NCBI GenBank assembly: GCA_034687125.1
Contig: JAQGBZ010000458.1
Span: 1 to 45,715 of the forward strand
Length of the DNA: 45,715 nucleotides
Source: Neelides folsomi
Lineage: Eukaryota; Arthropoda; Collembola; Neelipleona; Neelidae
Direction of reading: 5' to 3'
The position numbers and the translations under genes are program-made. Shown here in pieces: positions 1,001 to 45,590 of this stretch (within the stretch, counting starts at the first letter, position 1; every line of letters begins with the position of its first letter). The notes under the pieces are model-generated. The model was not told the DNA's origin. It searched no databases and worked only from the letters and a program-made list of their open reading frames with translations.

Positions 1001-1450
1001 CCTCAAAAAGTGCTTTTTATCAATTATCTCCCAAAAACCTTTCCCCATTGAAACCCATTATTATTTCACTCCCTTTTTTATGCCACTTCGGGGAAATTAG
1101 AAGACAAAAACGAAGGAATGGTAAATCACTCAAAAATCCAACCGACAATTTTTAAGTTTTATATAAAACTCAATAGATTCAAAATGATGCATTAACTATC
1201 TATATATACTATGTATTATGGCCCACACTGTATGCAAATATAAAATACTCGACGAGTACATGTAAAAGCATTATTGTGTTTTGGTATTAAATGTATAAAG
1301 ATGCTTTGATATTTATTTAATAAAAGTTTTATTGTTCATTTTTGATTCGTTACATTTGTTTGGAGTATTGTCGAATAATAATAAAAATTACACACACGAT
1401 ATTTTCTCTTTCGATCTCGGAGATAAATGATTGAATAAAATATATCTTTA
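1000..1450. repeat. Segmental duplication, copy A (partner 6318-6990)
   Basis: It begins at aaaaagtgctttttatcaat and runs to gattgaataaaatatatctt. Almost every word recurs at 6318-6990, including tatgccacttcggggaaatt. Length differences are mostly explained by two small inverted-repeat elements inserted in the other copy. At 1254-1259 this copy keeps the uninterrupted sequence gagtacatg that is split by a MITE in copy B. No gene is visible from 1000 to 1906. Confidence 0.85.
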
Positions 1451-1906
1451 AGAGTATTATTAGCATATGAAATTAAAATATTGCAATTAAAGAAAAAAGT
1501 AAAAATCATATCTTAAGAATATGGTAAGAATTATTTAGAATTAAACATTGGTTATTATAGTAAAATTAGAATATGGAATTATTGGTTATCCAATAGAAAG
1601 TTATAAAACATGGTTTGAAAATTGTCTAAAACTTGTTTTACAGTAGGTCTATATTTTTCAGTAAATCCCAGACATTGAGATACCATTCAAATAAAATAAA
1701 TTTTGTACAAGAAAATTTATCTTATTACAAAAATTGAATTTAATTTTACATTTATGTGGATTAAATTATTGAAAAAGATTTACTCAAAAGTCTATTTGAA
1801 CACCATGAGGCTTTAAGTCACTGAGGAGATGAATTGGGTCGTGAAGCGGAGAAGGATAAATAGTTAATGATTGCAAAACCAGTTAGAATAATTGCCATTA
1901 AATGCC

Positions 1907-2704
1907 TTAATTTTCTTCCTCTCCCTCCTCTGTTGAAGCGGGAGTAAGGGGTAGGGGAGAATGGAAGAACTCGGGAAGATTATTGATAATTTGGTTCAAT
2001 TGCAGATCCATTTCGATTCCTTGGACTCCTAATGGACCGTTTCCTCCTCCAATGTTACCCAAAACTTCTCCTTCGGCATTCCCTCCAACACCAACACTGA
2101 AACATTTTGAATTAAAATTTGAATTTTGAACACTTTAACCATTCACCATGAATATTTTATGATGATTATTCCTAATTAGCAATTATTTATGAAAAACAAA
2201 TAAAAATAATTTACTCTCGAAATATTGGTTCTCCGGAGCTCCATTTTGAGATCTCAAGCTTCTTTTTCCTTCCCATGTGGTCTTCTAGAAGTTCAATTTT
2301 TTTCGATTGAGCAAGAACCGTCTCTGACATTATTTTAAATTGAGCCTTCAGCTGTTTGATCTCCTCTGCTTGAGCACGGATTTCTTTAGTTTGATTCGTA
2401 ATAATTCCTGTCAGGGTCCTGTTAAATTAAATAAGAGAAAAAATTTAAAATTTTATTGAATCAAGTAATATTATATTTAACTTTGAGTTTTATTTACCAC
2501 CTATACATTAGTAAATATATTAAATTTAAAATTTATTTTGTTAAAAATAAATTATAAATTAAATTAAAGTATTTGTTCGCACGTTGAAGATTCAATGGAT
2601 CCTTCAACGAGAACCAATGGATCTTTGTCGAGTTCAATCTCTTCGAGACGAATTTCTTTGCTTTCTGTTGAAATATCGGAAAATTGTTCATTATTATCCG
2701 ACAT
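1907..2704 (-). CDS. Small coiled-coil protein, unknown function (3 exons)
   Basis: Three exons join in phase: complement of 2583-2704, 2215-2418 and 1907-2096, giving 171 residues. The N-terminus is acidic (MSDNNEQFSDISTESKEIRL). The middle exon has a heptad-like, charged helix (EIRAQAEEIKQLKAQF, then ETVLAQSKKIELLEDH) typical of a short coiled coil, followed by a basic patch (GRKKK). The C-terminal exon is Gly-rich, then has a predicted helix (EMDLQLNQIINNLPEFF) and an acidic end (TEEGEEEN). Donors are GTGCGA and GTAAAT, acceptors are good CAG sites, and all junctions are phase 2. I do not recognise the family. No signal peptide or membrane segment is seen. The exon at 3335-3408 could serve as an alternative start because it has the same phase. 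Confidence 0.65.
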
Positions 2705-2916
2705 TATCCTGATGTTTGATAAAACGTGGAAATTAAAATTTTTTAAATAAAAAAGTTATTGATACGATATACAACTTGAAATGTTTATCAGGAATGCCTT
2801 AATGTTATGGCAGATTCAGTCTTAACATTTATTTGGTTCAACTTTTGAATTAAAAATAAAACAGTAATCCTTAATCCATCCATTCAACTTTAAATTCTTT
2901 TAACAATGCAAAGGCA

Positions 2917-3114
2917 ATGAGACAAAAATCGATATTAAATATATGGGTGTTTTTATTAGTTTTATTATATATCGCATATAGGTTTAAAGTAGAAACTCAT
3001 CCAGATAATAATACATGTTATTCAAAACATATATTCTCTAATTTGGTATGTCAATATAAGGAAGAAATATTTAAGTACATATTCCTCTTTGGAATACTCA
3101 TAATAAGGATTTAA
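2917..3114 (+). CDS. Possible 65-residue hydrophobic peptide
   Basis: The frame encodes a basic start (MRQKS), a hydrophobic stretch of about 15 residues (ILNIWVFLLVLLYIAY), a middle with two cysteines about 12 apart (CYSKHIFSNLVC) and a hydrophobic C-terminus. It could be a small secreted or membrane peptide. In the duplicate at 240-1000 the equivalent start is closed by a stop within a few codons and the rest is not preserved, which argues against strong constraint. AT-rich DNA readily produces such hydrophobic frames by chance. Confidence 0.15.
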   Translation: MRQKSILNIWVFLLVLLYIAYRFKVETHPDNNTCYSKHIFSNLVCQYKEEIFKYIFLFGILIIRI

Positions 3115-3334
3115 ATTTTTATTGCCTTTAGTTTAATTCCAATAGTTTTTTATTCCCTTTTGTAAGCTTGGGGTTCATTTTATTTATTATTGAACAACAG
3201 GATCAATATAAAATTTAGTTAATTTTACATGTAAGGATTAAATTCTTAAATTACACATTTAAAATTCACCTTTAATACCTATAATGTAAGTATTGGCATA
3301 TTTATGTAAAAATAAAAAATATATAATTGGGTAC

Positions 3335-19329: not shown

Positions 19330-20480
19330 AATCAAACACTGAATTTGAATTCCTGTAAACCAAATGAATGATTAGTTCAAATAAATAATTAAATTGGGAA
19401 GGTCAATAATGGGGTTTAAAGGGAGGACAAGAGGTCATCAATTTAAACCCTGCTGAGGTCAAACTATTCAAATTGCAACTAAAGGGTTTATTCACATGCG
19501 AGGAATTCCAGAAAAGCAGAAAAAATTGGCCTCAGTTTTTTGATCAACCCAGGTAGAATGAAAAACCATGAAGCGTGAATAGTGAGGTGAAGGATGGGGG
19601 TTTCAGAAACGGGGAATCTGACTACTCTCAAGGGTCACCTCGGGTCGTGGCGGGTCGTGGGTGAGCGACGCTGCAACCCCGAAATGTGTAGATTGAAGAA
19701 CTGCAGATGCAGATGAGATGCAACCACGAGTATTTTTGCCAATAACCAAACCAAGTTCGCCCCAAACTCTTCGCTCAAAAGTAAGAATCTAGTCAGAATA
19801 TATCTCGGAAAATTCATTTTAAAACTCAGCGTTTGTAACGGTTAGCGTTAGCGGTTAAATTACATTGTTTTCATAATATTAATAAAATGCAATGTTATAC
19901 GAATAATCAGTCTTAAATTTAAATTTTAAATTGAATTTTTCTCTAACTTTAACATATTAATTAACAAATTATATTAATTCGAATAGAATTAAATTAATTA
20001 TTAAACGTGTTATTTAATCCCGGGTCTTTAAAAACTATTAAACTACTTAATGGTTCGTAAATTTTAAAACTTTTCTCTAGAAATAAGGAACAAAGGAATT
20101 CGCAATATAATATTTTTTGTAAATAATCATACTTCTTACTAATAGATTAAAAGCTCAGTATATGTTATGTATGAACAAATTGGATTTATAAACGTAATAA
20201 ATATTTAATTGAGCTGCTAAACCTAAATGATACTGGAAAACCCCAAATTAACGTCCTTGATTTTCTGACGTTGAAATAATACGAGTACTCCTATATAGAG
20301 TATTAGAGTACACAATGTCTCGGACTTACTGGGATTATTATTAAAGAAAAAATTCTGCCAGAAAAACATTCAAATTACTTCCATTAAACTTAACGCATAT
20401 AATTTATTATGCATATGCATATAATTTAATTTCGAGTTTGATTCTTTTTGATCTCTTTGTTCTTAAGATTTCTAAAGCTC
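19330..20480. other. Intergenic, nothing recognised
   Basis: AT-rich with a moderately GC-rich block at 19430-19700. Frames there do not match anything known to me. The final 100 bases include the likely promoter of the acyltransferase pseudogene that follows. Confidence 0.3.
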
Positions 20481-20489
20481 GAAATCAAA

Positions 20490-21753
20490 ATGTATTCTGT
20501 AAGGAAGTTATTAGAATTTCGGAGAATTTTTGATAATTTTTCCACTTTCGCTATCTTCATTGTTTCATTATTTTTCATTCCCCTTTTAATTGTTGTTTTT
20601 ATATTAATTTCCCTTTATCGTTGGATTATGGGAAAGATCGTTTTATATTACAGAAATGATTTATATCGAATTGTGCCACTTCGAAGTACTTTCATGATTA
20701 CGGAAAATATCGAAAAATCAATGAAATTCTGTGAGAGTATTTCAAGTCTCCTCAGAGGAAAAATGGACAAGAAAATATTGGCTGAATTTATAAATGAAAA
20801 AATGATCGAAATGAAGAATCCAAAAACAGGGGAAAATTGCAATCCAGAATTGAAGTCCAAACTTGTTAAATCTGCTGGTTTATATTTTTGGAGTAAAGAT
20901 CAAGATTTTGATATTTTGAACCATATAAGTGAATTTAAACCAAAAGTAATTAAAGAATTTTATGGAATCGACGATCTCATTGAAGTTCAAAAAACTCAAA
21001 TGAATACTTCATTGGATTTGAATCGCCCTTTCTTCGTTTTATCTTTTGTTCAGTTTATGAGGGAATTTATGAAGTTATGTACAGCTTTGATTTCAATGAT
21101 CTTCACCCATCGCTTACAAGAAAAAGAGGAGAGAAAATTGTTAAAAGTGTGACGCATCCTAATAAACGTTTATTAATCAAAGATCTGAAAGAAATCGCTT
21201 ATTCGAATAATGTTGGAGTTACAAGTGTCATAATAGCTGGACTTATCGGAGGAATTAGAAAATTCATGTTGGAAGAAGAAATGAAAATTCCAACTAAAAT
21301 GCAAATTGGTTTTCCTATGCCTTTTCCCGGTCATCCTGATTTTAAATTAAGAAATCACTTGTAAGAATTATATATAAATCATATAAATTAATTAAATTAA
21401 ATTATTAAAATAATTTTTATGATTTTATTTTATTGAGAAAAATTTTATTTAGTTGAGGAATTTATTTTAGTTCGTTTGGGAGCCTTTCTCTTCCAATTGG
21501 AATGATCGACTCGCTAAAAAGATTGAAAAAAATCGAACATCGAATGGAAAGATTTAAAAATTCTTCGTTGCCGCTTTCTAATTTTTTCATTTTAGCTCCT
21601 TTTTTGGCAACACTTCCAATTTTGAATCGATTTTTTAATAATAATATTTATACCTTAGTTGATATTTTGTTTTATTTAAAGTATTGTAAGAAAAATGTAC
21701 AAATTAAAATTTATACATCTAATATTGAAGTTGATAATTTATGCAATTTGTAG
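20490..21753 (+). pseudogene. WS/DGAT-type acyltransferase, catalytic motif deleted
   Basis: The 5' part parallels the intact copy at 24568 (MYSVRKLLEFRR, two membrane segments, then the shared block ending NTSLDLNRP). At 21029 the sequence jumps to material corresponding to about 25410 in the intact copy. The jump removes about 300 bases: the end of exon 1 with the HHAVADG active site, the first intron and the start of exon 2. The frame shifts at the join and ends at 21152. The remaining exon 2 frame (FDFNDLHPSLTRKR to FKLRNH) is still open, splices in phase to 21476 and reads SFGSLSLPIGMIDSLKRLKK. After NNNIYT homology stops. The frame runs into the antisense of the convergent neighbour and ends at 21753, so the last exon is missing. 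It cannot make an active enzyme. Confidence 0.88.
20816..21028 (+). repeat. 213-nt tract identical to 24894-25106
   Basis: Between the words gaatccaaaaacagg and ttgaatcgccc I find no mismatch with 24894-25106, while the sequence on both sides differs at many positions. The tract stops exactly where the deletion in this copy begins. Confidence 0.9.
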
Positions 21754-23830
21754 AATTCCTCATCAATGAGCTTGTTGAGTCGATTTATTTTTTCCCTAGA
21801 TGAACAAATTGCCGAATTTAATCCACAAGATTGGTTAACTTCCCCATTGTAGCTCACTGATGTAAAAGCAATTCCTGGTAGGAATAAGGACAAAATAAAA
21901 TGACGTTTCTTAATTCTAATTAAACAATAAAAAAATTACAAACTTTGAGTTCCCCATCCAATTCCAACGTTAAAAGCCATGTTATCAACCTCAGAACCAA
22001 ACATTGAGATTTGAATTGAGGAAAGGGGAAAGGAAGAAATTGCTCCAATGCATTTTGCTTGTGTCAATATTTTCGTTATACATGTTGGAAATCCTATTAA
22101 AATGAATGAAGTTCCTTAATAATGAAAATAATGATATAAAATCCATATTTTTAGTTGAATTTATTATTGAAACTATTATTACGTAAATCTTAATGCAATT
22201 AAGTTTTTAACTAACCTCCGATAACTGGAATTATAAAAAATAAGTAAGAAGGTAAAACCGATTTTTTAACGGATTTTAATTCAACTTCAGCCTTTTTTAA
22301 CCTTTCCAAAGAATCTGCTATTCCGACTATTTTAAAAAGTATTATATTAATTTAAATGTGAATATATCTCAATTCAAATCAATTCAACCTAAATATTTTC
22401 ATATTATTAGCATCATAGCTGTTTTATATTATCTGTAGATTGTTTGTTTAAATATTTACAAAGTAAAGCATTCACTATAAAGCATAATAAAAGTATATTA
22501 ATGAATATTATATTTCCTAACTTGGGATATTGATAAATCCAGAAGCACTGAAAGTAAATCATTAAAAAATATATTCCCAATAATTCACATTTAAAAGTAA
22601 CATTATTAGAATTTTAGAATACATACAAATAATTTCTCATTTTATCAGGATGATTTTTAGCTGGGATTGGAGCAGCAAATTGAATACTTCCTGGAACTTC
22701 CAAACCTTCTTCAATTATAAAATTTCTAATTCCTCCACTTAATCCTAAAATATAAATTAATATAAAATATATATCATAATTCGTAATTAAATGTACATTA
22801 ATGAGAAGTTATAAATAATATACAGATACATGTATGTGTATTATACAGGGTGGGTCATACGTTGCCTTCTTTTTTAAATAAACATTCCTATAAAATAAAG
22901 CAACCATTGGCCCACCCTGTAGATTATATGTATAGCAACTTTACCCGCTAATATAACTGCTAAATACGAAACATCAAAATTCATCTTAATAGCTTTCACA
23001 ATAGATATTTTCATCGGAGGATTCGTAGCAAGAATGTGTTTATTGGTCAATTTGCTTTTGTTAATTTCCCATAATCTGTCTTTGTTAAAATATAATTTAA
23101 TCATTTCATTACTCCCAAGAATAAAAAATCCCAAACTGTTGAAAAATCTTGTCAAAAATAATTTTTGTCCATAGTTTGCAAAATTTGGTTTGACAACTGA
23201 AACTTCAATGTTTTTATCAGCCATTTCTTCAATGAATTTTAAAATTGAATATCCATCACAAATTGAATGGTGAATTCTGAGAAAGCACAAATCCCCTTTA
23301 TTCCAACTTTGCTTTGGTAAAAAAATTATTTCCCATGGGCTTTTTAATGATTTAAATCCTTTGCTAAGAAGTTCTTCAACGTATTCATTAAAATCATCTT
23401 CACACTTAAAAATCTTATTATCGAAATATACATGTTCGTTAATATCAAACAAATCCTCTGACTTCCAAAATAAATATCCACAAAATAGCTCTAAATACTG
23501 CGTTAGTTCTTTGAATTTTTCCAATTTCGCGGTAAATTCAATAACTTTTTTGGCATCATTGATTTTAACTTTATCAACAAATTTCATGCATGTATTAATT
23601 GTAAACTTTGGTTTGTTTAAGTTGTCAACGGCAAAAATCATACTCCGTGTCGTTACCATTTTATCGAGATCTGGGCGAAACAAGGGAGCTAAAACCCGCT
23701 TCACAACCCAGCGGAAAATATAAAATGGGGGAAGACAAATAATTAAAATCGCGTTAAAAATCAGGCTCAACAATGTGATTATAATAATTTTAAAGACAGT
23801 TAGCAATTTATTAAAAATTAAATAAACCAT
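21711..23830 (-). CDS. WS/DGAT-type O-acyltransferase (6 exons, intact)
   Basis: Exons on the minus strand are 22945-23830, 22627-22744, 22522-22547, 22216-22326, 21944-22093 and 21711-21874, giving 484 residues in phase. The N-terminus has two hydrophobic segments (ITLLSLIFNAILIICLPPFY), followed by the catalytic HHxxxDG motif as HHSICDG near residue 180-190. The C-terminal domain has SGGIRNFIIEEGLEVPG, GFINIPIGIADSLERLKK and SVSYNGEVNQ, as in the second domain of wax-ester synthase/diacylglycerol acyltransferases. These enzymes join acyl-CoA to fatty alcohols or diacylglycerol at membranes, producing wax esters or storage lipid. Exon 3 is only 26 nt. Donors GTTAGG and GTTTGT are weak but all phases agree. 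It is diverged from its plus-strand neighbours, so the duplication is older. Substrate is unknown. Confidence 0.88.
22846..22919. mobile_element. 74-bp MITE in acyltransferase intron 1
   Basis: Ends are cagggtgggtcatacgttgc and, inverted, cagggtgggccaatggttgc. TA flanks both sides (22844-22845 and 22920-22921). It is the same family as the element at 6652-6727. It lies wholly inside the first intron of the minus-strand acyltransferase and does not disturb splice sites. Confidence 0.88.
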
Positions 23831-24567
23831 TGTGAAATTCTACTATAAATTTTGCTATATATTTAATATTGGGAATAAATAGGTAATCTAATTAAAACAT
23901 TGTACTACAGATATTATAACACGTGCACTTGATTAACTTACTAAACTAATTCCAAGAATAAAATATTAGTACATTGTGGCTATTTAATATGTAATTAGGT
24001 AATTACTTTAATGAAGAGTTCTTTTAGAGGAAATGGAATTACCTAAATATAATGGTATATTATTTAAAAGCATTTTACGATTTTTTAATATTTATAAGTA
24101 CATCAATATACAACTGTACTGTATGAATTATTTATGTAGTATGTTATGTATATAATATTGAGCTCCTACATATTAGGCATATTATGAAATGAACAAATTG
24201 GATATATTGTAATTAAGTACTTAATTAACTTACTAAAAAAAAGTATGCAATAAAGTGTGGAAAGAGAAAATTACAAATGACCCTGAACTTAAACTTATGT
24301 ACAAAGAAGTTTTACTATTGTTGATCATGACCTCTTTGACATACCCCGATAATTAAATTGTTGTAAAAAAAAATGTGCGAAAATATTTTGAAAATTACTT
24401 TAATAATCCATATACATTTAATATATAATAAATTGCATAAATTATCATATTACTCATCTTATATAAAACATGATAGAGTGCATGTTAGAGTAGAGTTCAT
24501 TTATTTCCTAAAAATCTCAATATAAATTTGATCACTTTATTCGTATTTTATTTTGCTAAAAATCAAA
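23831..24567. other. Divergent intergenic region between two acyltransferases
   Basis: About 740 AT-rich bases separate the start of the minus-strand copy from that of the plus-strand copy. It should hold both promoters. I see no conserved box. The words aaatcaaaatg around the start recur at 20490. Confidence 0.4.
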
Positions 24568-26430
24568 ATGTATTCTCCAAGAAAGTTATTGGAAATTCGG
24601 AGAGTTGTTGACAATATTTCAACATTAATTTTCTTCATTTTTGTAGTGTTTGTCAGCCCTGTGTTAATTGTTGTTTTTATATTAATTTCCATTTATCGTT
24701 TGGTTATGGGGAAGATTGTTTTATATTTTAGAAAAGATTTATATCGAATTTTGCCTCTGCGAAGTAATTTTGTCATTACGGAAGACATTCAAAAATCAAT
24801 AAAATTTTGTGAGGGGATTTCTGGTCTCCTTAAGGGAAAAATGGACAAAAAATTATTAGCTAACTTTTTCACAGAGAAAATGATCGAAATGATGAATCCA
24901 AAAACAGGGGAAAATTGCAATCCAGAATTGAAGTCCAAACTTGTTAAATCTGCTGGTTTATATTTTTGGAGTAAAGATCAAGATTTTGATATTTTGAACC
25001 ATATAAGTGAATTTAAACCAAAAGTAATTAAAGAATTTTATGGAATCGACGATCTCATTGAAGTTCAAAAAACTCAAATGAATACTTCATTGGATTTGAA
25101 TCGCCCGCCTTGGGATGTAGTTTTCCTAAATAATTTTAAATTTGAAAGTTCTGATGAAGTTTTAAGTTTATTTTTATTGAGATGGCACCACGCGGTTGCA
25201 GACGGTAAATTATTTATATTATCACAATTAATTATAATTATACCATGGTAATAATTTCATTGAAATTATTTGAGTCCATTGCAGATTTTAATTAAAGTAA
25301 TTTAATATAGGATTTTCTACAGCAAAACTCTTTTGCAATTTTGAACCCGAGAACATAGCAAAATATAATTATGTAAGAAATTTCCAGAAAAAATCTCTCT
25401 CTTCGCAAATTGCTCGAGTTTTACGATTAATTTTTTGTTCAATCTACGAAGGAAATTATAACATTGTGTCGGCATTTGATTTCAATGAACTTCACCCGTC
25501 ACTTACAAGAAAAAGAAGCAACAAAATTGTTAAAAGTGTGACGCATCCACAACAACGTATTTTTGTTAAAGATCTTAAAGAAATTTCTCGTTCGAATAAT
25601 GTTGGAGTTACAAGTGTCATAATGGCTGGACTTATCGGAGGAATTAGAAAATTCATGTTGGAAGAAGGAATGAAAATTCCAACTAAAATGCAAATTGGTT
25701 TTCCTTTGCCTATCCACGGTCATCCTGATTTCAAATTAAGAAACCATTTGTAAAATACTAACCAATTTAAATTACTAATTATTACTTTTATATTTAAACA
25801 TTATAAAATTAACTTACAATTACTTATAAATTTAATTTATTGCTAGTTCGGTTGGGAGCATTTCTCTTCCCATTGGAATGGTCGACCCTTTAAAAAGATT
25901 GCAAAAAATTGAGCGGCGAATGGAAAATTTGAAAAGGGCCTCATTTCCGGAAATATATTTTTTTGTTTTAATTCCATTTTTATCAACTCTGCCCATTTTG
26001 AATCGAATAATAAATAAAAATATTATTTCAACCGCCGTCGTTTCGTCTTTTCCGTGGTTTAAAGAAGAAATTAATTTTGCTCAAACACCCGTTGAAAACT
26101 ATTTCATTGATCTTTCCTTTTTCACTGGAAATTATCGTAATTATAACTTTGAAATTACTCGAACATTTACCATTTAATTTATATGTTAATTATTATTATA
26201 TATAAATATATTAAAATATAAGATTATATAGTATTTATTTAATGATTATTTGATATTTAATAATTTTATTATTATTACCAGCAATTAGCATCACTACTTT
26301 GTCTTATAATGGAAAACTGACAATTGTTTTGACTGGAGATGAACAAGTTTTTAAAACTGATGAAAAAATGAAAAGAATTAATGAAAATATCCAAGATGAA
26401 ATAAAATTATTAACTTCATACAATGTTTAA
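24568..26430 (+). CDS. WS/DGAT-type O-acyltransferase (4 exons, intact)
   Basis: Exons 24568-25204, 25311-25749, 25847-26136 and 26282-26430 join in phase to give 504 residues. Residues 15-50 are hydrophobic (two membrane segments). The catalytic motif HHAVADG ends exon 1, and the intron splits its glycine codon. The second domain contains SVTHPQQRIFVKDLKEI, GGIRKFMLEEGMKIPTKM, SVGSISLPIGMVDPLKRLQK, VVSSFPWFKEEINFA and SITTLSYNGKL, the order seen in wax-ester synthase/DGAT proteins. The start MYSPRKLLEIRR was chosen over an in-frame ATG five codons upstream because the same context, aaatcaaaATG, is shared with the damaged copy. The enzyme probably esterifies fatty alcohol or diacylglycerol at the endoplasmic reticulum. 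The exact substrate cannot be told. Confidence 0.9.
24894..25106 (+). repeat. 213-nt tract identical to 20816-21028
   Basis: Second copy of the identical tract, lying in exon 1 of the intact plus-strand acyltransferase just before the PWDVVF segment that leads to the active site. Confidence 0.9.
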
Positions 26431-32361: not shown

Positions 32362-35300
32362 ATGTTTAGAGCCGCAGCATCAGAAAGAAACAAAGGGCCT
32401 ATTTTAAACGTTCTTAAAGGATTAATTCCGAAAGAAACCATTTTTAATGCTCTTGAAATTGCATCGGGTTATGGTGAGAAATATTCAATTTTACCTTATT
32501 TTAAATATTTATAATATTAGCTAAAAAATTATTTTACATTTATTAAAATTAAATTAAATTTAAGGAAAAAATGAAGAACTTGTAATAATTATTAAAATTA
32601 TAATCCAAATGATTAAAAAACTTAAAGAGTTTTCATTCCAGATTTAAAATAATTGCTCCGATAATTAAAAACAAAGAATAACCCATTTTCATTCCTTGAT
32701 TATATTCCAACAAGTAATTTTGAGGTTCAGCATGTTTAGGAAAATCATTATTGATCAATTTCTCTCTTGAGACGATTAACTGAGTTCCGTTACATTCATT
32801 TAAGGATATTTGATTTATTTTTTGGCACTTATTTGCAGAAATTTGATAATTTTCCACTTCAAAAAGATTCGTCAGAATTTCTTGGCCTTTTCTATGTTCA
32901 TTAACATGACTTATCAAATTAGCACTTATAACCGATTCGTGAACCCAAGAATCCTTAACAAAAAAATTAATTGATCCAACTTCCTCATGAGTTCCCAAAC
33001 AACCCGGGTCATTGTGGAAAACCACAACATTTTGTGCATCGCTTGGGTCAAGTCGTTCTGCTTTAGAAATATTTAAAATTACATAAATATAATTTAATTT
33101 CAAATCGTACCTGATGACTTTTCCAAAGAGACATTTTGATTAAAAGTTAATTAATGAAAACTTATTCAACTCTTAAATCCTTGTAAGATTTTAATACTTC
33201 GTTGTCTATACAGTTCTACAGTAGAACAGTTAAAATAAGGAACAATACTTTTGACTCTACTATGATTAAATGTCAAAATAAGAAGAGAATAACAGATCCA
33301 TTTCCCCTTTATATACCATCATGTGACTGTTGACACATTAAAGGATATCCCGCCAACTCACCATGTAAAGTTGGTCGTTAAAATCTCAGAGGACAAGGGT
33401 CAGTAACAAATGAAATGATAAAACACACCTATGAGTAAGCATAAGATAAATCTCCAATTTCTTAAACGCTTAAACTCTTTTGATGGGCTTTCATAAAGAT
33501 GTCAAATTTTAATTCGTGAAATATTTTCATACTATATATACATACTATAGGTATGGTATATATATATATATATATACCATACGTATATGTGTTTACTATT
33601 GATATTTATTGATATGTATGTTAGTACAAGACATTTGAATACTAGAATCCTAAATAAACATTATTACCAGGGCTGTGAAGTTTAGGTGTGAAAATCGAGA
33701 AAATATGTATGTAAATATGTATGAAAAATGAGACAAATGTATGGAAATATGTGTGAGATTTTTCGAGAATTTTAGTAGTTTATATCAATTATACATATTT
33801 TTGGGACAATTCATAATGACAAACAACCCACATCATAATGACAAGTTTTCAGTAGTAAAAGACATAAGAGCTAGAACAGATTTATGCATAGAGAAACTCC
33901 ATTCAACATCGACAGATGTTAATAGGGCAAACTTAAAATGGCAAATATGATTCGGATCAGACAAATTACATTGAGAATTAACTCCAGACAATATTTTAGA
34001 ATATTTGCGTATTATTTCCAAATCAGAATTCTTTTGAAAAACCATATTAAATTTCTCCAATACAGCAAACCCAAAGGCAATACATATGACATGAAGCGGA
34101 TAGTTTTCAAATTTTTACATAAAGTGAGCACCACCAGAGAGAAAAAGTAGAAATCGATCACTTTTTGTTTTTTGAGAACATCAAATATTACATATAAATT
34201 AATATTTATTATAATTCTTCTACAAAGGGTGAAAATAGAAAAAAACGCTTTCAAAATCTCCACAATCTCTCTCTGACTATAAGAAGATTTGTGAAAAGCC
34301 ACTACCATCCCTTCCACTTTGGGATCAATCTTTTTACGCCCCATTTGGCAAATTAATTAATAAATTTGTCTGATAGAGTTATACGCAATAATCCCGCCCA
34401 AAAATTCCCACTATAAAGATTATACATATTAATTAACATTAAGACCACCAGCGTTTTTTTCTCTTTTCACCCTGTATAATTTAATTAAATAAACTATATA
34501 TCATTCCTAAAAGTTGGAAAATGTGTATGAATACATATTTTTATGTGCGAATATGTACGAATATGTAAAATATGTACAGATTCCAAAATATGTATGAAAA
34601 ACTATGCGTTTTTGAGGTCTATGAGGCATAGAACGCGTACAGCCAAAACCTTCGCCTTCGATTTTAAGGAATAAAAAATGTATGTATGCACCTAAACTTC
34701 ACAGCCCTGATTATTACGTACATAATAAATAATAAATACTACGTGTATGCGGAAGGAGTCTGTAGATAAATAATTTGTTCAATCTCAGCTTCTCTTTTTA
34801 TTTCTTTCCAATTTCCCATACATTAAATATTTACTTTTAATGTGGATGATCCTCTCCTCTTAAATCTCAGGATTTTCATTCCATTTTGATTTCCCCATAT
34901 ATATATTTGTAAATTATGCGTTTTAATTAAATATGATTGAATATATTTATGTTAATACTCTTCTAATTACCTTATTTAATTAAATTATCTTTTTAATAAG
35001 TATTTACAATTTTCAAAATAATTGGCCCGATAATTAAAAGAAAAGAATAACTCAATTTCATTCCATTATTATGATAATCTAACTTGTAGTTTTGAGGTTC
35101 AGCATGTTCAGGAAAATCATTATTGATCAAATTCTCTCTCGAGACAATTAGCTTATTATTAATATCGCAGTCACGTAAGGAATTTTCAGTTAATGTATTG
35201 CATTTACTTGCAGAAATTTGATAATTTTCTCTTTCAAAAAGTTTTGTTAGGATTTCTTGGCCGATGCTATGCTCAATAGTATGATTTTTATAATTAGGAT

Positions 35301-38300
35301 TTATAACAGGTGTGTGAACCCAAGAATCCTTAAGGAAAATATTAATTGACCCAACTTCCTCGTGAGTTCCTAAGCAACCCGGGTCAGTGTGGAAAACCAC
35401 AACGTTTTGAGCATCGCTTGGGTCAATTCGTTCCGCTTTAGAAATATTTAAAAAATATGGTCCAGCTGGATCCAAACCTACAATTAGCGGAATTGTTTTA
35501 TTATAATCACATCGGAGCATTTGCCCTGTTTTCCCGCTCAAGTGTGCTCCTAAAGAATGACCAATCAAAGTTAAACGATCGAATGATAAAATATTTTCAG
35601 TCACTAATTCGTTTATAAATTCAGATAGCCGTTCTGCCACAAATGGAATATTGGCTTTAGTTGGTCCGTAACAAAATCCGCCAAAGGATGTTGATTTCCA
35701 ATCCACAATAGCTATGAAATCATAAGTTGATGCCTGAAAAATATTATCATTTTAAACAAGTTAATTGATAGTTTTTAATTTATAATTAATAAAATATTTT
35801 ATAAAATATTATTAATTTTATTTACATTTTTCAAACTTTTAACCAACGGAGTGATCCAATCAGAATCAGAATTTGATTTCAGCCCATGTGTTATAAAAAC
35901 TCCTCATTTATAATTTGCATTATTTCCAAATCGAGAAACCCAATATTGATCTTCTTTTAATTCAATCTGGATATTGGCACTGTAATTTTGAAAAAGTTTC
36001 AAATCGTGATCGTTTATTTTATTAATTATTATAATTATTATTATTAAAATGAAAGTATTATAATTAGTTATAATTAAATATGTATACTACACTTATGGTT
36101 AGCTTATAGTTAATATATTTTAAATATATATATAATTTTTATGTATTTTCTAATTGTAAGTATCTGTACTTGTTTTCCAAAATCCAATTTTCCGTCGTCA
36201 TTGAGTCTCGAGTGTGAATCTTGACAAATGGATTTAGTCCAACATAATGTCGATCCCTGTTAATTAGCTAAATTAGTTAACTTATATCCATATTCAAAAT
36301 TTTATTTTATTAATTTTATTTCATATAAAATGAATCCATACGAGGTATAATAGCAATGAGAAATCCAATGACCAACAACTGATATTGTTACCACGGCTGC
36401 CAAAATTGAAATCCAGATAATAGAACAGCAACATTTCTGAAAATATAATTATGAATAATTTAATTAATATATAAAATTTCATATTTCAACATTATTGCAA
36501 AGTTAACTTTACATAAAAATAATTAAATTTTAAATAATACCGGGCAATCTTTCAAATAAGATATCTTTATTTAATTAAGTAAAAGTTAAATAACGAAAAC
36601 TTATTCAGCTCTTACTTGAAGGATTTTAACTCCTCGTTTGTGAGTTTAAAAAGATATAATAAAATTATATTTATCTCAAACTTTAATGTCAGCGAGAATA
36701 AACTTTTTCATATTCACATATATTATGTATTTAATTGTACATGCAACATATTGATATATGATCTAGTCCAATATATGTAATAACAGGTTAAGAAAGACAA
36801 TACTTTCGACTCTTATAACTAAATGTGATTAATTGTCAAAAATAGGTAGAGAATAATAACAGTAACAGATCCATTTTCCCTTAATCTTCCATCGTGTGAC
36901 CGTTGACACATTCTAACAATAAGGGAGATCCCGCCAACTCAGCATGTAAAGCAGATCGTTAAAATCTCAGACGACAAGGGTCACTAACAAATGAAGCGAA
37001 ATGATAAAACAAAAGCATGAGAAAAATGTCAAATTTCTGATCAATAAGCTTAAACTCTTTCAAGAACGTCAAGTTTTAAATAGGTGAAAAATTTCATGCT
37101 ACACTATACATTATGCTACACTATATTTAAATAATCATGCATAAATTGTACCACCATACATAATATGTATTACATGTATTAGGAACATACCGTAAAGTAT
37201 GTATTTTTGTCCCGGGATATCTTTCAAAATTCTACACCTTACCCCAGGATATATATCGATACCGGATATAATTCGATACCCGGATATCTTTAAATGAATG
37301 TTCGAATATAAACATAATTATTTAAAATTTTATTTAAAATTCTATGATTTATTCATATTCTGAACTTGAACCTTCTTAAGTTAAGATGAATTAAAGATTT
37401 ATTCAGAATTTAAAGCATTTTAAGTTAGGATGAATTAAAGAATTACTCACAATTGCTTTAAAATGTTGAAAATTAACGCAATTCTATATAAGACCCGGAC
37501 ATAATTTAATACCCGGATATATTTTAAAATCTCATGCCTCACCCCCGGACATAATTCGATACCGGATATAATTCGATACCCGGACAAAAATACATGCTTT
37601 ACGGTATGTAGACTATGTATATAGACTGTTTACTATATAACGTAGATTGTGTTAACTTTAAAACAACATGTCAATGGTGTTTTATATTGTAAGCAAATTG
37701 ATATTTTCTGATATGTGCCATATATTTGTATACAAGACATTATGGGTACTTATAAGCCTAAATAAACACTTACATAATAATTTAATAATAATAAATTATG
37801 AATACTACGTGTTTAATGTGGAATTTGCAGATAAACAATTTTTTCAATCTCAGCTTCCTTTTTTATTTTCTTCCCTTTTCCCATACATTAAATATTTACT
37901 TTTAATGTGGATGATCCTCTCCTCTTAAATCTCAGGATTTTCATTCCATTTTGAATTCCCCATATATGAATCATGACAATCATGAGTTTTAATTAAATAT
38001 GATATGAAAATATTTATGCCATTACTCTTTGTACATTAACATTATCTTACTTATTTAAGTCATCTTTTTACATAATAAATATTTACAATTTTCAAATAAA
38101 TTAACTATAAATCCTTATGGTTAATATAATGAAATGTGCATTTGCCATTTTTTGCAATTAATGTTCCTTTGTTCAGCAATTTAATTGAGGTTTTTTAATT
38201 TCAGGTGTTCACGTGTCTCATTTTGCTGATTATTTCCGTAACGGAGTTTGGCAGCCTTCGGATGTGGAGAATGAGTCTTTTGCAAGCATCATGGCCTGCA

Positions 38301-40612: not shown

Positions 40613-43600
40613 ATGGACACTTCAAATCAAGGTAATTTTTTATATATATACATGTTATTATTATTAATATATTAATATTCTAACCTAGTTATAAGTAAAT
40701 TACAATAGTATTAACTATTTTTTGGTATATTGCTAAATTTGCTTAATCTTTAGAACTTATCCTTAATTGGGCCACGATTATTGCCAATGTCCACTATAAA
40801 CAAAACGAGGTGGAAACATTTTTTATAAATTTAAATTTACCACACCTTTATGAAGATAACAAAAATAAAAATAGAGTTGTCGCCTATAACAATGCCATTA
40901 ATGCATGGTACAAAAGCAAACCTCTAAACCATACAAAAAATCTGAAAATGAATTTAATTACAATTTTGATAAAAATGGGATGGAATCACGTGTCTGGCAA
41001 AATTTCTGGAATTTCAATAAATGACCAAATAAGCGAGAATCTGTGGAATGTTCCTCCAAAATTGGCGAATTTCACAGGAAGAGAAAAATATTTAAAGAAA
41101 ATTGATGAAATATTTGAGCAAGAAAGGCCGTTTGCTCTTATTTCTGCGTTTGTTGGAATGGGAGGAATTGGAAAATCTTCTCTGATTTCTGAATACATTT
41201 GGAGAAACGTACAAAATTATAAAAGGATTGTTTGGTTTAATGCGGATCCAAATGATAAATCGGTTGACAAAGAATTCCTTAAATTCGGAAAAGAACTTCA
41301 TATCATTGATGAGGTAAATAAAGATATTTTAAATGCAACAAAGAAAGATGAAGATATTTGTGAAATTGTCAAATGGTTTGAAAATACGGAAACTGATTGG
41401 CTGATTGTATTTGACAATGTTGAAAGATCAGAATCAATTAAAAAATTAATACCAAGAAAGAAGGGTAAAGTTTTAGTAAGTTCAAGAAATCTCTTGTTTG
41501 AAGTTGAAAATAGAATAGAAATAAATCAATTTGGACTTGAAGATGTGATTAATTATTTAAAGTCAAAAAAACTCGTTCACCAAGAGATTAAAAATGAAAA
41601 AGAAATTGTTGAAAAATTCGCAACTCGGCTTGATTTTCATCCACATGCAATATCAGCAGCTATGACATATATCGATATAATGAAAATCGACTTAAATAAA
41701 TATGTCGAAACTTATGATCTGAATTTAAATTTAATCGAAAAATCAATTTCATATTTAAAGAAAAATTATTTTATTGAATCTCTCAAACATACATTTACTA
41801 ATATTTTAATTTCTGTTAGAGAAATTCATGACAATAATAAACAAGCTTTTGATGTGTTGAATCAATGTGCGTTTTTATTGCCGAATAAAATCCCTAGAAT
41901 TATATTTGAAGATGACGTTTTCGAAATACTTCTAAAATATTCAATGATTTCATTGGAAGATCAAAACTTTATTTTTATTAATCGTCTTGTACGGCAAACA
42001 TTATTATTTAAAATATATGGAAAGTATACAAAGGATGAAGATTTAGAAATGTAATAAATATATCAAATTATTATTATTAGATTACCATATATATTATATT
42101 AAATTAATATATGAAATATATAAAATAGTTAATTTTATATAATTTTTCTTAGGTATCCTGAAAACAAATCAAAAGAAGTCCTTGATAAAGCATATGAAAT
42201 GATTGACAAACATTATCCTTTGGAAAGAATAACTGAAAGTAGTTTGATTTTAAAATCAAATTTATTGCCACACTATGAATCCTTGAATATTTACAATAGT
42301 AAAATTAACGGCATTAGTTTACAGATCGTTGTTTTGCCCGAACGTTTTCAAATAAAAAACTATAAATTTAGACAACTAGACAAATTTCTAAGAATTCTCC
42401 AAAATGAACAAACGAAAATTAAAAAAATTGAAACTCAAAATTCTACAGAAAATCGAATTATTGACGGTCTTAAATATTTTGAATTATCTTGCCAATGTGA
42501 TAAGGAAGATTTCGAAAGTGTGGTTAAGAATTTACAAAAAAGTTTAAATATATTCCAAAATATTTTGAATGAAGATCATGAATTAATTATGGAAATTAAT
42601 TATCTTCTTTCTTTTCAATACCGAAGAAATTGGATAGTTCATAACGACAATAATTCTAAATTAAAAGCAGAATATCACGAAAGTTTATTTGAATTTAGTT
42701 TGTTTACAAGATACAATCTTGCACGTGCGTATTATTTTGAAACAAGAAGAAATCCCGATGATTTTAACAAGCGAAATGAAATCTTATTTAATTATTCTCA
42801 AGTATTAAATATACAGAAAAACATGTTAAGAAAAGGTATTATTATTAACCTAATAAATTTTTTCTTTAATATAAATATTTGTCTTTTAACATTTTCGTTT
42901 GATTTCCAGAATGGATTTTAATTATTGGTGATCTTTTGTCAATAAAGCATAATAATATTGAAGACTTTTGTTTGTTATACTCAAAATTGTTTGGATTTGA
43001 ATTAAACAAAAATATTATTAAACAAGAGAATATGATCTATTTGGATTTATATTATAATTTACTTCTCAAGTGGGCCAATGAAAGAGAAACTGGAATCTCA
43101 ATACATTTTATATTAATTGAAATATTGCGACATGATTTAAAATGGACAAATTTCGTAGAATCAATTCCAGTAATAAATAATTTTATACTAATTCAAATAT
43201 ATAAAATATAACTATTAATATTACATACATAAATAAATTTAACATATAAATATTTTAGAATAAATGGATACCTAAGAAAAATCCCAACGTTCAATTGAGA
43301 AACAAAATGATAAGCAAAGTGTTCAGCAAAAGTGAAGGATTAGAATTGGAATTTATAAACGAAATGAAATTCGACCAAAAGAAGTTTGTTAAAATAATGA
43401 GCCAAAATGACATTATATTAAATGATAAAGACTTAATTAATTATATTCTAAACATTGCAGCTGAATTAGAATTATTTGAACTTGTTAAATATTTTATTGA
43501 AAATGGAACAAAATATTTATTTGAAAGTAATTTTAAACCACTAGAAATTGCAATAAAAAATGATTCAATAGAGTTGATAAACTATATCTTAGGAAGTGGG

Positions 43601-44017
43601 GCAATGATTGAGATTATAAATATGGATAAAACCCTTTTAAGCGAATCATTATATAATGCCTGTCAAAACGGAAATTTAGAAATTGTAAGGTTATTAATAG
43701 AAAAACTTAACGAAGTCAACGTAGTTGTTGATAAAGAATGTTCATTACATGTAGTTTCAAAGTTGGGTTATGAAGATATTGTGGAGTTACTTTTGGAATA
43801 TGGAGCGAATTTTGAATATCAACAAGATAATTCTAGACCTTTACATTTTGCGTCAAAATATGGACATTCAGAAGTTGTAAAAATACTTTTAGAAAAAGGA
43901 GCAAAAATTGATGTTTTAAGTAAAGATAATTGGACTTGTTTACATTTTGCGTCAAGATATGGACATTCAGAAGTTGTAAAAATACTTTTAGAAAAAGGAG
44001 CAAAAATTAAGTTGTAA
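40613..44017 (+). CDS. Death-like / NB-ARC / TPR-like / death-like / ankyrin STAND protein
   Basis: Exons 40613-40631, 40754-42050, 42153-42835, 42910-43169 and 43259-44017 join in phase, 1005 residues. Residues 7-95 are all-helical with a death-domain-like end (AYNNAINAWYKSK, LKMNLITILIKMGWNHVSGK). Residues about 105-400 are an NB-ARC NTPase: entry motif NFTGREKYLKKI, P-loop GMGGIGKSS (141-149), Walker B WLIVFDNV (222-229), sensor KVLVSSRN (245-252), and HPHAISAA where plant and animal relatives have GLPLA. Residues 440-665 are helical and TPR-like (NLQKSLNIFQNILNEDHELI). Residues 667-753 form a second death-like fold (YYNLLLKWANERETG, FILIEILRHDLKWTNFVES). The rest is ankyrin repeats, the last two encoded by a perfect 99-nt period. 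APAF1- and NLR-type STAND proteins use this plan to sense a ligand, oligomerise and recruit death-fold partners. Ankyrins in place of WD40 or LRR are the likely sensor. Death-fold calls are by eye. Confidence 0.85.
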
Positions 44018-44211
44018 TTAATGATAATTGGACTCCTTTACATTATGCGTCGAAATATAGACATTTAGATGTTTTTAAAATACTTTTAGAAAAAGAAGAA
44101 AAAATTGATGTTTTAGATAAAGATAATTGAACTCCTTTACATAATGGTTTATATTTTGCCACGAAAAATGAACATTCAGAAATTCTAAAATTACTTTCAC
44201 AAAACAAATAA
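43841..44211 (+). repeat. Tandem 99-nt ankyrin-coding repeats
   Basis: Units begin at 43841, 43940, 44038 and 44137, each at the codons for LH(F/Y)A or equivalent. Spacing is 99, 98 and 99. The first two are nearly identical over their whole length (tatggacattcagaagttgt in both). The 98 shows a one-base loss in the second unit. Confidence 0.95.
44018..44211 (+). pseudogene. Decayed continuation of the ankyrin array
   Basis: After the stop at 44017 a shifted frame continues the ankyrin pattern: DNWTPLHYASKYRHLDVFKI, then LLEKEEKIDVLDKDN. It is then broken by a TGA at 44128-44130 where the other units have TGG, and resumes TPLH, FATKNEHSEILKLLSQNK to a TAA at 44211. One base lost around 44008 (ATT AAG for ATT GAT G) causes the shift. 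The gene once had at least two more repeats. From 44212 to 44690 I see nothing. Confidence 0.85.
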
Positions 44212-44694
44212 ATAAAAAGTGATAATTTAAATAATACATATGAATTTTATTTTGCAATATTTCAGGATTGATATTTTGAAGTTATTATGGTTTAATTTAT
44301 TGAGTTTTTAATTGCTGTTTTTGCCAATTACTAGTCAAACTTAATTTTTTATTTATATATTTAAATATCCATTATTTTATTAAATTAAAGATTATATTTA
44401 AGTATTAAAGTAATTAATTAAATTTTGTTTTAAATGGAATTATTTATAACGTTTTTTAATAATTTAATTAAATATTTAATTCTTTAAATAACGTTAGATG
44501 GTAAAATCATGTAAATCACACTATTAGAAAATCGGTAAAATAAAGATTTTATATTATTAGAAATTGTAAATTATTGATTTTCACATTGATTCCCTGTATA
44601 AATTAATTATAAACGGGTGATTATAAAACTATTTAAAAAATGGCATTGCCAACATAAACAAGTTATCGGCTACATTTTATAATTGGGAAATTTT

Positions 44695-44850
44695 AGCCAT
44701 TTTCTGGCTATCCAGGATACCAAAGCCCGTTTTCGGGCTATCATAGCCCGTTTTCTGACTATTGTTGCCCGAATTCAGGCTACCATAGCCTGTTTCGGGC
44801 TACCCGAAACCGTATTTTACCCATCATCTGGACCTTGACCTTTATTTGGC
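44695..44850. repeat. GC-rich degenerate tandem repeat, about 21 bp
   Basis: Units such as gggctatcatagcccgtttt, gactattgttgcccgaattc and aggctaccatagcctgtttc repeat about six times. Each contains a small inverted repeat (gggcta...tagccc). A related phrase occurs at 1-75. Confidence 0.8.
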
Positions 44851-44925: not shown

Positions 44926-45500
44926 ATGGTTGTAGATCTTAAAATGCTAGAAAATTTAGATTATTTTATAAATTTGTTAAGAAGATATTACGTAATTCCT
45001 TGCAATTGGAATCCAGAAACTTTAGAATGGGCTCGAACTATTATTATACTCGAATTAAAACTCACCGAACACGCGTGAGTCGAATTATTTAAAATGCTTA
45101 AGCTGTAACGTGCACAAGCGTTACCTTTGCCCCACATATGCAAATTTAAGCGATTAGTTCAAACTCACGCGTGTTGGGATCTCGAATCTACTATAAATAC
45201 ATTTATTGTTGTATTACTAATAAACCATATTCTGAATATTTCATTTTTAACATTGCAGGGCAAATAATTAGAAATCAAATTTAACTAACGAAGAAATTGA
45301 ATTACTAAAATTGGAGTCATTGACCAAATTTGTTTCAATTCAATTGAAAAGAGTCGATCAACTCAGTTTCAGAAGAATTGAAAGGTTTATTAAATCTTCC
45401 CAAAAAGAGAAAATTTTTGTTCACAAAAAAGGAGCCTTCGTGTCGGGTGTAATTGTCGCGTCTAGAGTATGTCGGGTCGTCGGGAGTAGAGTATGTTAGA
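44926..45500 (+). pseudogene. Orphan two-exon gene, probably broken
   Basis: Exon 44926-45074 reads MVVDLKMLENLDYFINLLRR, then NWNPETLEWARTIIILELKL, and ends in a good donor GC|GTGAGT. The acceptor at 45257-45258 continues in phase but meets a TAG at 45269-45271. Beyond that the same frame is open and protein-like (LTNEEIELLKLESLTKFVS, QLSFRRIERFIKSSQKEK) until GC-rich repeats at 45430. I do not recognise the family. The helical, leucine-rich look would suit a death-fold or TPR-associated piece related to its neighbour, but this is a guess. Confidence 0.3.
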
Positions 45501-45590
45501 TAGGTCTTTTAATGTAAATATCAGGTATCGGGTCTGGTGTATGTCGGGTCGTCGGGAATTGGACTTGTCGGGTGTCGGGTCTGGTGTACG
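45425..45590. repeat. GC-rich tandem repeat (gtcgggtcgtcggg)
   Basis: The words gtcgggtcgtcggga, gggtctggtgta and gtgtcgggt repeat irregularly across about 165 bases, then composition returns to AT-rich up to the window end, where no gene is seen. Confidence 0.8.

Follow-up and report, generated by a model that had tools for sequence, protein, structure and literature searches.

A multi-copy gene family of the collembolan Neelides folsomi joins an NB-ARC-type STAND core to two related death-like domains and ankyrin repeats

The gene on the forward strand at positions 40613-44017 of the analysed DNA, a stretch of 45,715 nucleotides from Neelides folsomi that is referred to as the window in the following, codes for a protein in which a STAND NTPase core stands between two helical domains that are homologous to each other and in which ankyrin repeats form the C-terminus. 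A sequence-only reading of the window had claimed a single STAND gene with this composition, and the NB-ARC core, the two related helical domains and the C-terminal ankyrins were all recovered where it had placed them. Beyond that reading, the gene turned out to be one member of a multi-copy family. On balance, we lean towards the view that it belongs to an expanded arthropod family of NLR-like intracellular STAND switches that would sense through their ankyrin repeats and signal via death-like domains. To our knowledge, the order death-like domain, NB-ARC, death-like domain, ankyrin repeats matches no known protein, with its individual parts being known.

Gene structure and gene family

The gene model consists of five exons:

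40613-40631, forward strand: exon 1, 19 bases, codes for MDTSNQ plus one base
40754-42050, forward strand: exon 2, death-like domain 1, NB-ARC and winged-helix region
42153-42835, forward strand: exon 3, helical linker with at most a TPR-like character
42910-43169, forward strand: exon 4, identical with death-like domain 2 (residues 668-753)
43259-44017, forward strand: exon 5, linker and ankyrin repeats (Pfam Ank_2, 6.4e-35), ends at the stop codon

Spliced together, these exons give one open frame and a single protein of 1005 aa, and the four introns that had been proposed beforehand are borne out, as each of them runs from GT to AG with the frame staying open throughout. The ATG, the codons and the GT donor of the very short exon 1 are kept in both paralogs that were aligned there (C305 and C517).

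Exon 2 served as the query for a six-frame search of the N. folsomi genome, which comprises 75.1 Mb on 840 contigs. The search, whose counts are lower bounds, resulted in 29 matches, from which NB-ARC sequence of the family was manually counted at about 19 places including the window gene, with six further places matching the N-terminal module only. Together with the 11 places at which exon 4 was found, this rules out that the gene is a single-copy curiosity. The core is free of stops in 11 of the 19 places; the others are fragmentary, sit at the end of a contig or contain stops, the latter being the case at several places of the family such as C449 and C369. Exon 2 is 44-88% identical across the paralogs.

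Eight paralogous loci were examined, and five of them (C305, C517, C824, C235 and C662) carry exons 2, 3, 4 and 5 in this order and on one strand, the other three being partial: C341 shows just exons 2 and 3, C448 just exon 4 preceded by the last part of exon 3, and C641 no more than exon 2. The latter locus (L023, 667-3075, forward strand) is a single frame of 803 residues with a long, NDYANMAN-like insert of low complexity after the P-loop. In the window gene and the five full paralogs, a manual reading found the acceptor AG at the positions of exon 3 and exon 4 in 6/6 genes, the donor GT of exon 4 in 6/6 and that of exon 3 in 5/6, and a common position of the exon 5 acceptor in 4/6. For C235, whose exon 2 is 50% identical to that of the window gene, the sole open GT-AG combination near the junctions of exons 2-4 has the same phases as the window gene. 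Since four spliceosomal introns are present and their splice sites recur in the paralogs, bacterial contamination was rejected as the source of the sequence.

A further locus combines two of the modules in a different manner:

L030 (G000:C365:34872-38135), 1441-3264, forward strand: N-terminal death-like module fused to many ankyrin repeats

In this gene the module is directly joined to the ankyrin array within one open frame and without NB-ARC, which indicates that the two modules are used together. The fusion could represent an adaptor or a decoy of the family. It also bears on the question whether the ankyrin exon of the window gene might be part of another gene and be joined to the rest on paper only. 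The distance between exon 4 and exon 5, which amounts to 1.8 kb in one paralog (C235), and the fact that the junction of the two exons was read from genomic DNA only would agree with such a separation; we nevertheless regard it as very improbable, given that exons 2-5 keep their order and strand in the five loci named above, that the exon 5 acceptor position is common to four of six genes and that in C365 a single frame unites domain 1 with ankyrins.

The NTPase core and its relatives

The core and its motifs are located as follows:

41050-41949, forward strand: STAND core (NB-ARC and winged helix), FxsT-like, residues 106-405; NCBIfam NF040586 4.8e-37, 127.9 bits with the spliced protein
41155-41178, forward strand: P-loop GMGGIGKS, residues 141-148
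41398-41418, forward strand: Walker B region WLIVFDN, residues 222-228
41464-41490, forward strand: sensor GKVLVSSRN, residues 244-252
41977-41997, forward strand: INRLVRQ, counterpart of HRLVQ in paralogs and bacterial relatives

Judged by its motifs and profile matches, the core belongs to the STAND NTPases with NB-ARC: P-loop, Walker B, sensor and winged-helix region follow one another in the expected order, and the NB-ARC motifs that had been described as directly readable were indeed found. The G-G-GK columns of the P-loop are invariant in 10/10 family rows, and the sensor is one that we take to be RNBS-B-like. Pfam NB-ARC reaches 23.2 bits on exon 2 of the window gene at a cut-off of 23.5, and it matches all ten aligned paralogs (best 5.3e-10), seven of which are also matched by DUF7779. 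The histidine of HRLVQ, a motif that presumably corresponds to MHD of plants, is found in eight of the ten family rows and is replaced by Asn in the window gene and in C305; the motif is likewise present in the bacterial relatives L066 and L067.

The core has its strongest match in the bacterial family FxSxx_TPR (FxsT, NF040586), with E-values from 9.6e-45 to 3.7e-34 in 10/10 rows. As the scores of 118-153 bits stay far below the equivalog cut-off of 300, the core can be assigned to the same class, and not to the FxsT family itself. The family shares with FxsT and related bacterial NB-ARC/TPR STAND proteins (NB-ARC, DUF7779 and TPR) a core of about 300 residues and HRLVQ, whereas its death-like domains and ankyrins lie outside the profile match, which ends at about residue 405, short of the TPR part. 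Plasmid-borne relatives occur in 21 records; ten of them, those listed, are 22-26% identical, eight of these ten start to match at exon 2 residue 95-106, and three of the ten carry the annotation fxsT. A viral contig and three places in bacteria likewise gave identities of 22-26%. In a tree confined to ten family rows and four microbial rows, the family falls on one side (100/99). The nearest solved structures by profile are two plant resistance proteins, namely RPP13-like protein 4 (4.8e-8) and Roq1 (6e-7), and bacterial AfsR (6.9e-4) is likewise among the nearest. The class extends beyond bacteria, since a fungal genome paper lists genes named after FxsT (PMC12734244).

The sequence-only reading had chosen APAF1 as its comparison. 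With the core matching the class of bacterial FxsT, closer comparisons than APAF1 exist, and a profile search with the core returned no APAF1 chain among the 38 PDB sequences matched at E-values up to 1. Common to the window protein and the apoptosome proteins APAF1, CED-4 and Dark are an NB-ARC ATPase, an N-terminal domain that possibly belongs to the death superfamily and C-terminal repeats; unlike them, the window protein ends in ankyrins and bears another death-like domain behind the core, and a Pfam scan of its 1005 aa gave no WD40 match. Orthology to APAF1 was rejected on account of the ankyrins without a WD40 match and of the absence of APAF1 chains from these PDB matches. A separate APAF1-like NB-ARC gene seems to be present at C267, a candidate by reading of the sequence; two pieces of it show no match to the FxsT profile, a weak control as they are short (169 and 75 residues).

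Between the core and the second death-like domain lies exon 3, for which the earlier description as TPR-like helices has proved a weak label. TPR_12 matches three of six exon 3 rows with a best E-value of 0.013 (0.089 for the row of the window gene), and the exon 3 profile does not single out bacterial TPRs, as its scores against three bacterial NB-ARC/TPR relatives are no better than those against their shuffles. Ordinary TPRs in exon 3 are tentative at most.

The two flanking domains

The helical domains on either side of the core occupy the following positions:

40756-41025, forward strand: death-like domain 1, about residues 8-97, homologous to exon 4
42910-43169, forward strand: death-like domain 2, without a Pfam Death match of its own

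For their comparison, profiles of 19 rows (domain 1) and 10 rows (domain 2) were used, which align with an hhalign score of 40.1 over 80 columns. The controls yielded 12.5 for the reversed profile and 20.7 for the best of 100 column shuffles, and exon 3, taken as a helical control, scored 10.2 and 13.1. The two domains are thus homologous to each other as judged by profile comparison, and one module is therefore present twice, flanking the switch.

The sequence-only reading had described both of them as death-like, with the pattern of death domains; of this, the two homologous helical domains at their proposed places stood, together with a leaning of the first one towards Death; all matches are below the Pfam cut-off. 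In the Pfam scan, the window protein itself has no match to Death. Among the 19 members of domain 1, three are matched by Death (0.0078, 0.012 and 0.032) and two by Death_3, and the two families recur in separate members with matching register. With the consensus of the domain 1 family, no Pfam family scores better than Death, which reaches 3.1e-4 and 21.2 bits (gathering threshold of PF00531, 22.6 bits), a value to be read with the consensus being an optimistic query and, Death having been named beforehand, with the single-model E-value being smaller by the library size of 24,736; Death_3 reaches 0.019. A match to a Death family occurred in 0/8 shuffled or reversed consensus controls. The consensus of exon 4 has no Pfam match.

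From our point of view, these patterns make it likely that the flanking modules are true death domains. It could alternatively be imagined that they have a different fold and form a lineage-specific module with no more than a resemblance to death domains, in which case the protein would still be a STAND sensor. Several results are in line with this alternative: the domain 1 consensus stays below the Death cut-off, and single members are matched about as well by unrelated Pfam families (DSRM_DHX29 0.0032, SNAPC3 0.0069). When compared by profile with four death domains taken from this genome, the modules do not score above chance, neither for domain 1 (16.5 over 11 columns, best shuffle 15.4) nor for exon 4 (12.3, best shuffle 20.3), and PDB profile searches with the two domains retrieved no death-domain chain. 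Single-sequence structure models were too poor to tell the folds apart, with a pLDDT of 47.4 and mixed strands and helices for one domain and a pLDDT of 63.8 and five helices for the other, and gave no fold match. We still consider another fold unlikely, as Death, the family named in advance, tops all Pfam families for the consensus, as Death and Death_3 recur in register in separate members, and as none of the eight controls produced a Death match.

Clear Pfam Death matches are found elsewhere in the genome, at C765:3753-3971 on the reverse strand (34.0 bits) and at C536:1257-1466 on the forward strand (32.9 bits). C765 also carries a fragment of the window gene's family, 2.5 kb from the Death match.

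Ankyrin array, proposed function and further observations

The C-terminal ankyrins that had been claimed for the protein are certain by Pfam, with an E-value of 1.3e-32 for the ankyrins and matches over the cut-off for Ank_2 (112.7 bits) and Ank (89.5 bits). Leucine-rich repeat families are absent from the Pfam scan, which places the protein outside the NLRs sensu stricto, defined by NACHT or NB-ARC plus LRR. The open ankyrin frames differ in length, with 252 aa in the window gene, 291 in C305, 516 in C517 and 258 in C824, and with at least 439 aa in C235 and at least 737 aa in C662, where the fetched stretch ends. Likeness among the repeats of one array is 52-76% in five of seven arrays; the window gene has the lowest value of all seven (13%) and C305 has 26%, with few repeats being anchored in both.

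Ratios of dN/dS were calculated by the Nei-Gojobori method for eight pairs out of the 15 that six genes allow, without a significance test, and are below 1 for every domain compared, as under selection against changes of the protein. The ranges are 0.26-0.66 in domain 1 and 0.25-0.57 in domain 2, 0.26-0.50 in the core, 0.26-0.45 in exon 3 and 0.21-0.54 in the first half of exon 5, and the ratios rise to 0.47-0.88 in the ankyrin half, where dS may be lowered by exchange between repeats. It follows that both death-like domains are kept as protein and that the ankyrins change most. As such, the part of the gene with the highest dN/dS is also the one with the most variable length, as would be expected of the variable sensor that the sequence-only reading had suggested.

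In the window gene, the array is followed by a further piece of ankyrin sequence:

44018-44212, forward strand: ankyrin remnant past the stop, in another frame, with one stop inside

Given that the HRLVQ histidine is Asn and that the ankyrin array is cut short, the window copy may be constitutively active, specialised or decaying. If it were a decaying or truncated duplicate, the function would be carried by intact relatives, and the end of the array at 44017 with the remnant behind it, the loss of the histidine in both the window gene and C305, and the stops at C449, C369 and other places of the family would fit such a fate. Set against this are the 1005 stop-free codons, the four intact introns and the dN/dS ratios towards the nearest copy C305, which are 0.21-0.50 outside the ankyrin stretch and 0.78 inside, so that we judge decay to be somewhat unlikely.

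STAND proteins rest as closed, ADP-bound monomers that are opened by a ligand at their C-terminal repeats, upon which nucleotide exchange and assembly unite their signalling domains. Transferred to the window protein, the ankyrin array would bind a microbial or damage-related protein, and ligand binding would free the NB-ARC/winged-helix core from the closed ADP form. Exchange for ATP could then let several molecules assemble, and the two death-like domains, united in a ring, might recruit partners with death-like domains to elicit a defence or cell-death response. Of these two domains, the one that follows the core may serve to hold the protein closed, or it may enlarge the surface available for signalling. 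We infer the death fold, the ATP switching, the oligomerisation, the ligand and the immune role from the anatomy of the protein.

Two further known groups come close to this architecture. Fungal NLR-like proteins (effector, NACHT or NB-ARC, and ANK, TPR or WD), as far as the accessible part of their description goes, have ANK and TPR parts of variable length with homogeneous repeats (PMC4986451); the STAND core and homogeneous ankyrin arrays of variable number are shared with them, whereas their N-terminal domains are different and the family described here has an animal-type death-like domain twice. Placozoan NB-ARC proteins, according to the available portion of their description, carry CARD, death-like or death domains together with repeats that are always WD40 or TPR (PMC6321704). 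In placozoans as in N. folsomi, an animal has an enlarged set of NB-ARC proteins whose N-termini are death-like, and the family of the window gene differs by its ankyrins and its second death-like domain. In a paper on HGT fusions, ankyrin repeats were removed from the screen and, in the part of the text accessible to us, NB-ARC is nowhere mentioned (PMC13389597). A survey of titles and the beginnings of abstracts, drawn mostly from outside the subscription literature, found no recognisable description of the architecture in arthropods.

Arthropods are usually said to lack internal alarm proteins of the NLR kind. The about 19 NB-ARC places with their flanking death-like domains and variable ankyrins would represent a candidate intracellular recognition system in this group. 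One could speculate further, as something possible rather than probable, that we are dealing with an arthropod-built NLR-like repertoire in an animal group described as devoid of NLRs: an FxsT-like switch, possibly acquired by gene transfer, would be framed by two diverged death domains, and recognition would fall to the surface of ankyrin arrays that gain repeats, lose them and become homogenised, in a family evolving by birth and death. The family would allow asking whether pathogens drive the change in the ankyrins and whether a bacterial-type switch is coupled to animal death signalling.

Some observations concern the remainder of the window and of the genome. Two adjoining stretches of open frames at 20442-26177 are near-copies of each other and apparently acyltransferase-like, with a related frame on the opposite strand at 22874-23839, and two similar adjoining lipase-like open frames on the reverse strand at 32633-35751 are probably a tandem duplicate. 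Within very AT-rich surroundings, the regions 44700-44810 and 45440-45590 hold short, GC-richer repeated motifs that are GGGCTATCATAGCCCG-like and GTCGGG-like, one of which scored as a terminator-like hairpin. One contig of the genome carries a COX1 with a frame that stays open under the invertebrate mitochondrial code, within a gene order that we read as nad2-cox1-cox2-atp6 and that is arthropod-like; a search for Blo-t-5, run with no working control, gave no match. Lastly, the genome contains several copies of squalene/phytoene synthase-like genes (Pfam SQS_PSY), namely at L057 (C468), C112, C649 and C283, which are unexpected in an arthropod.
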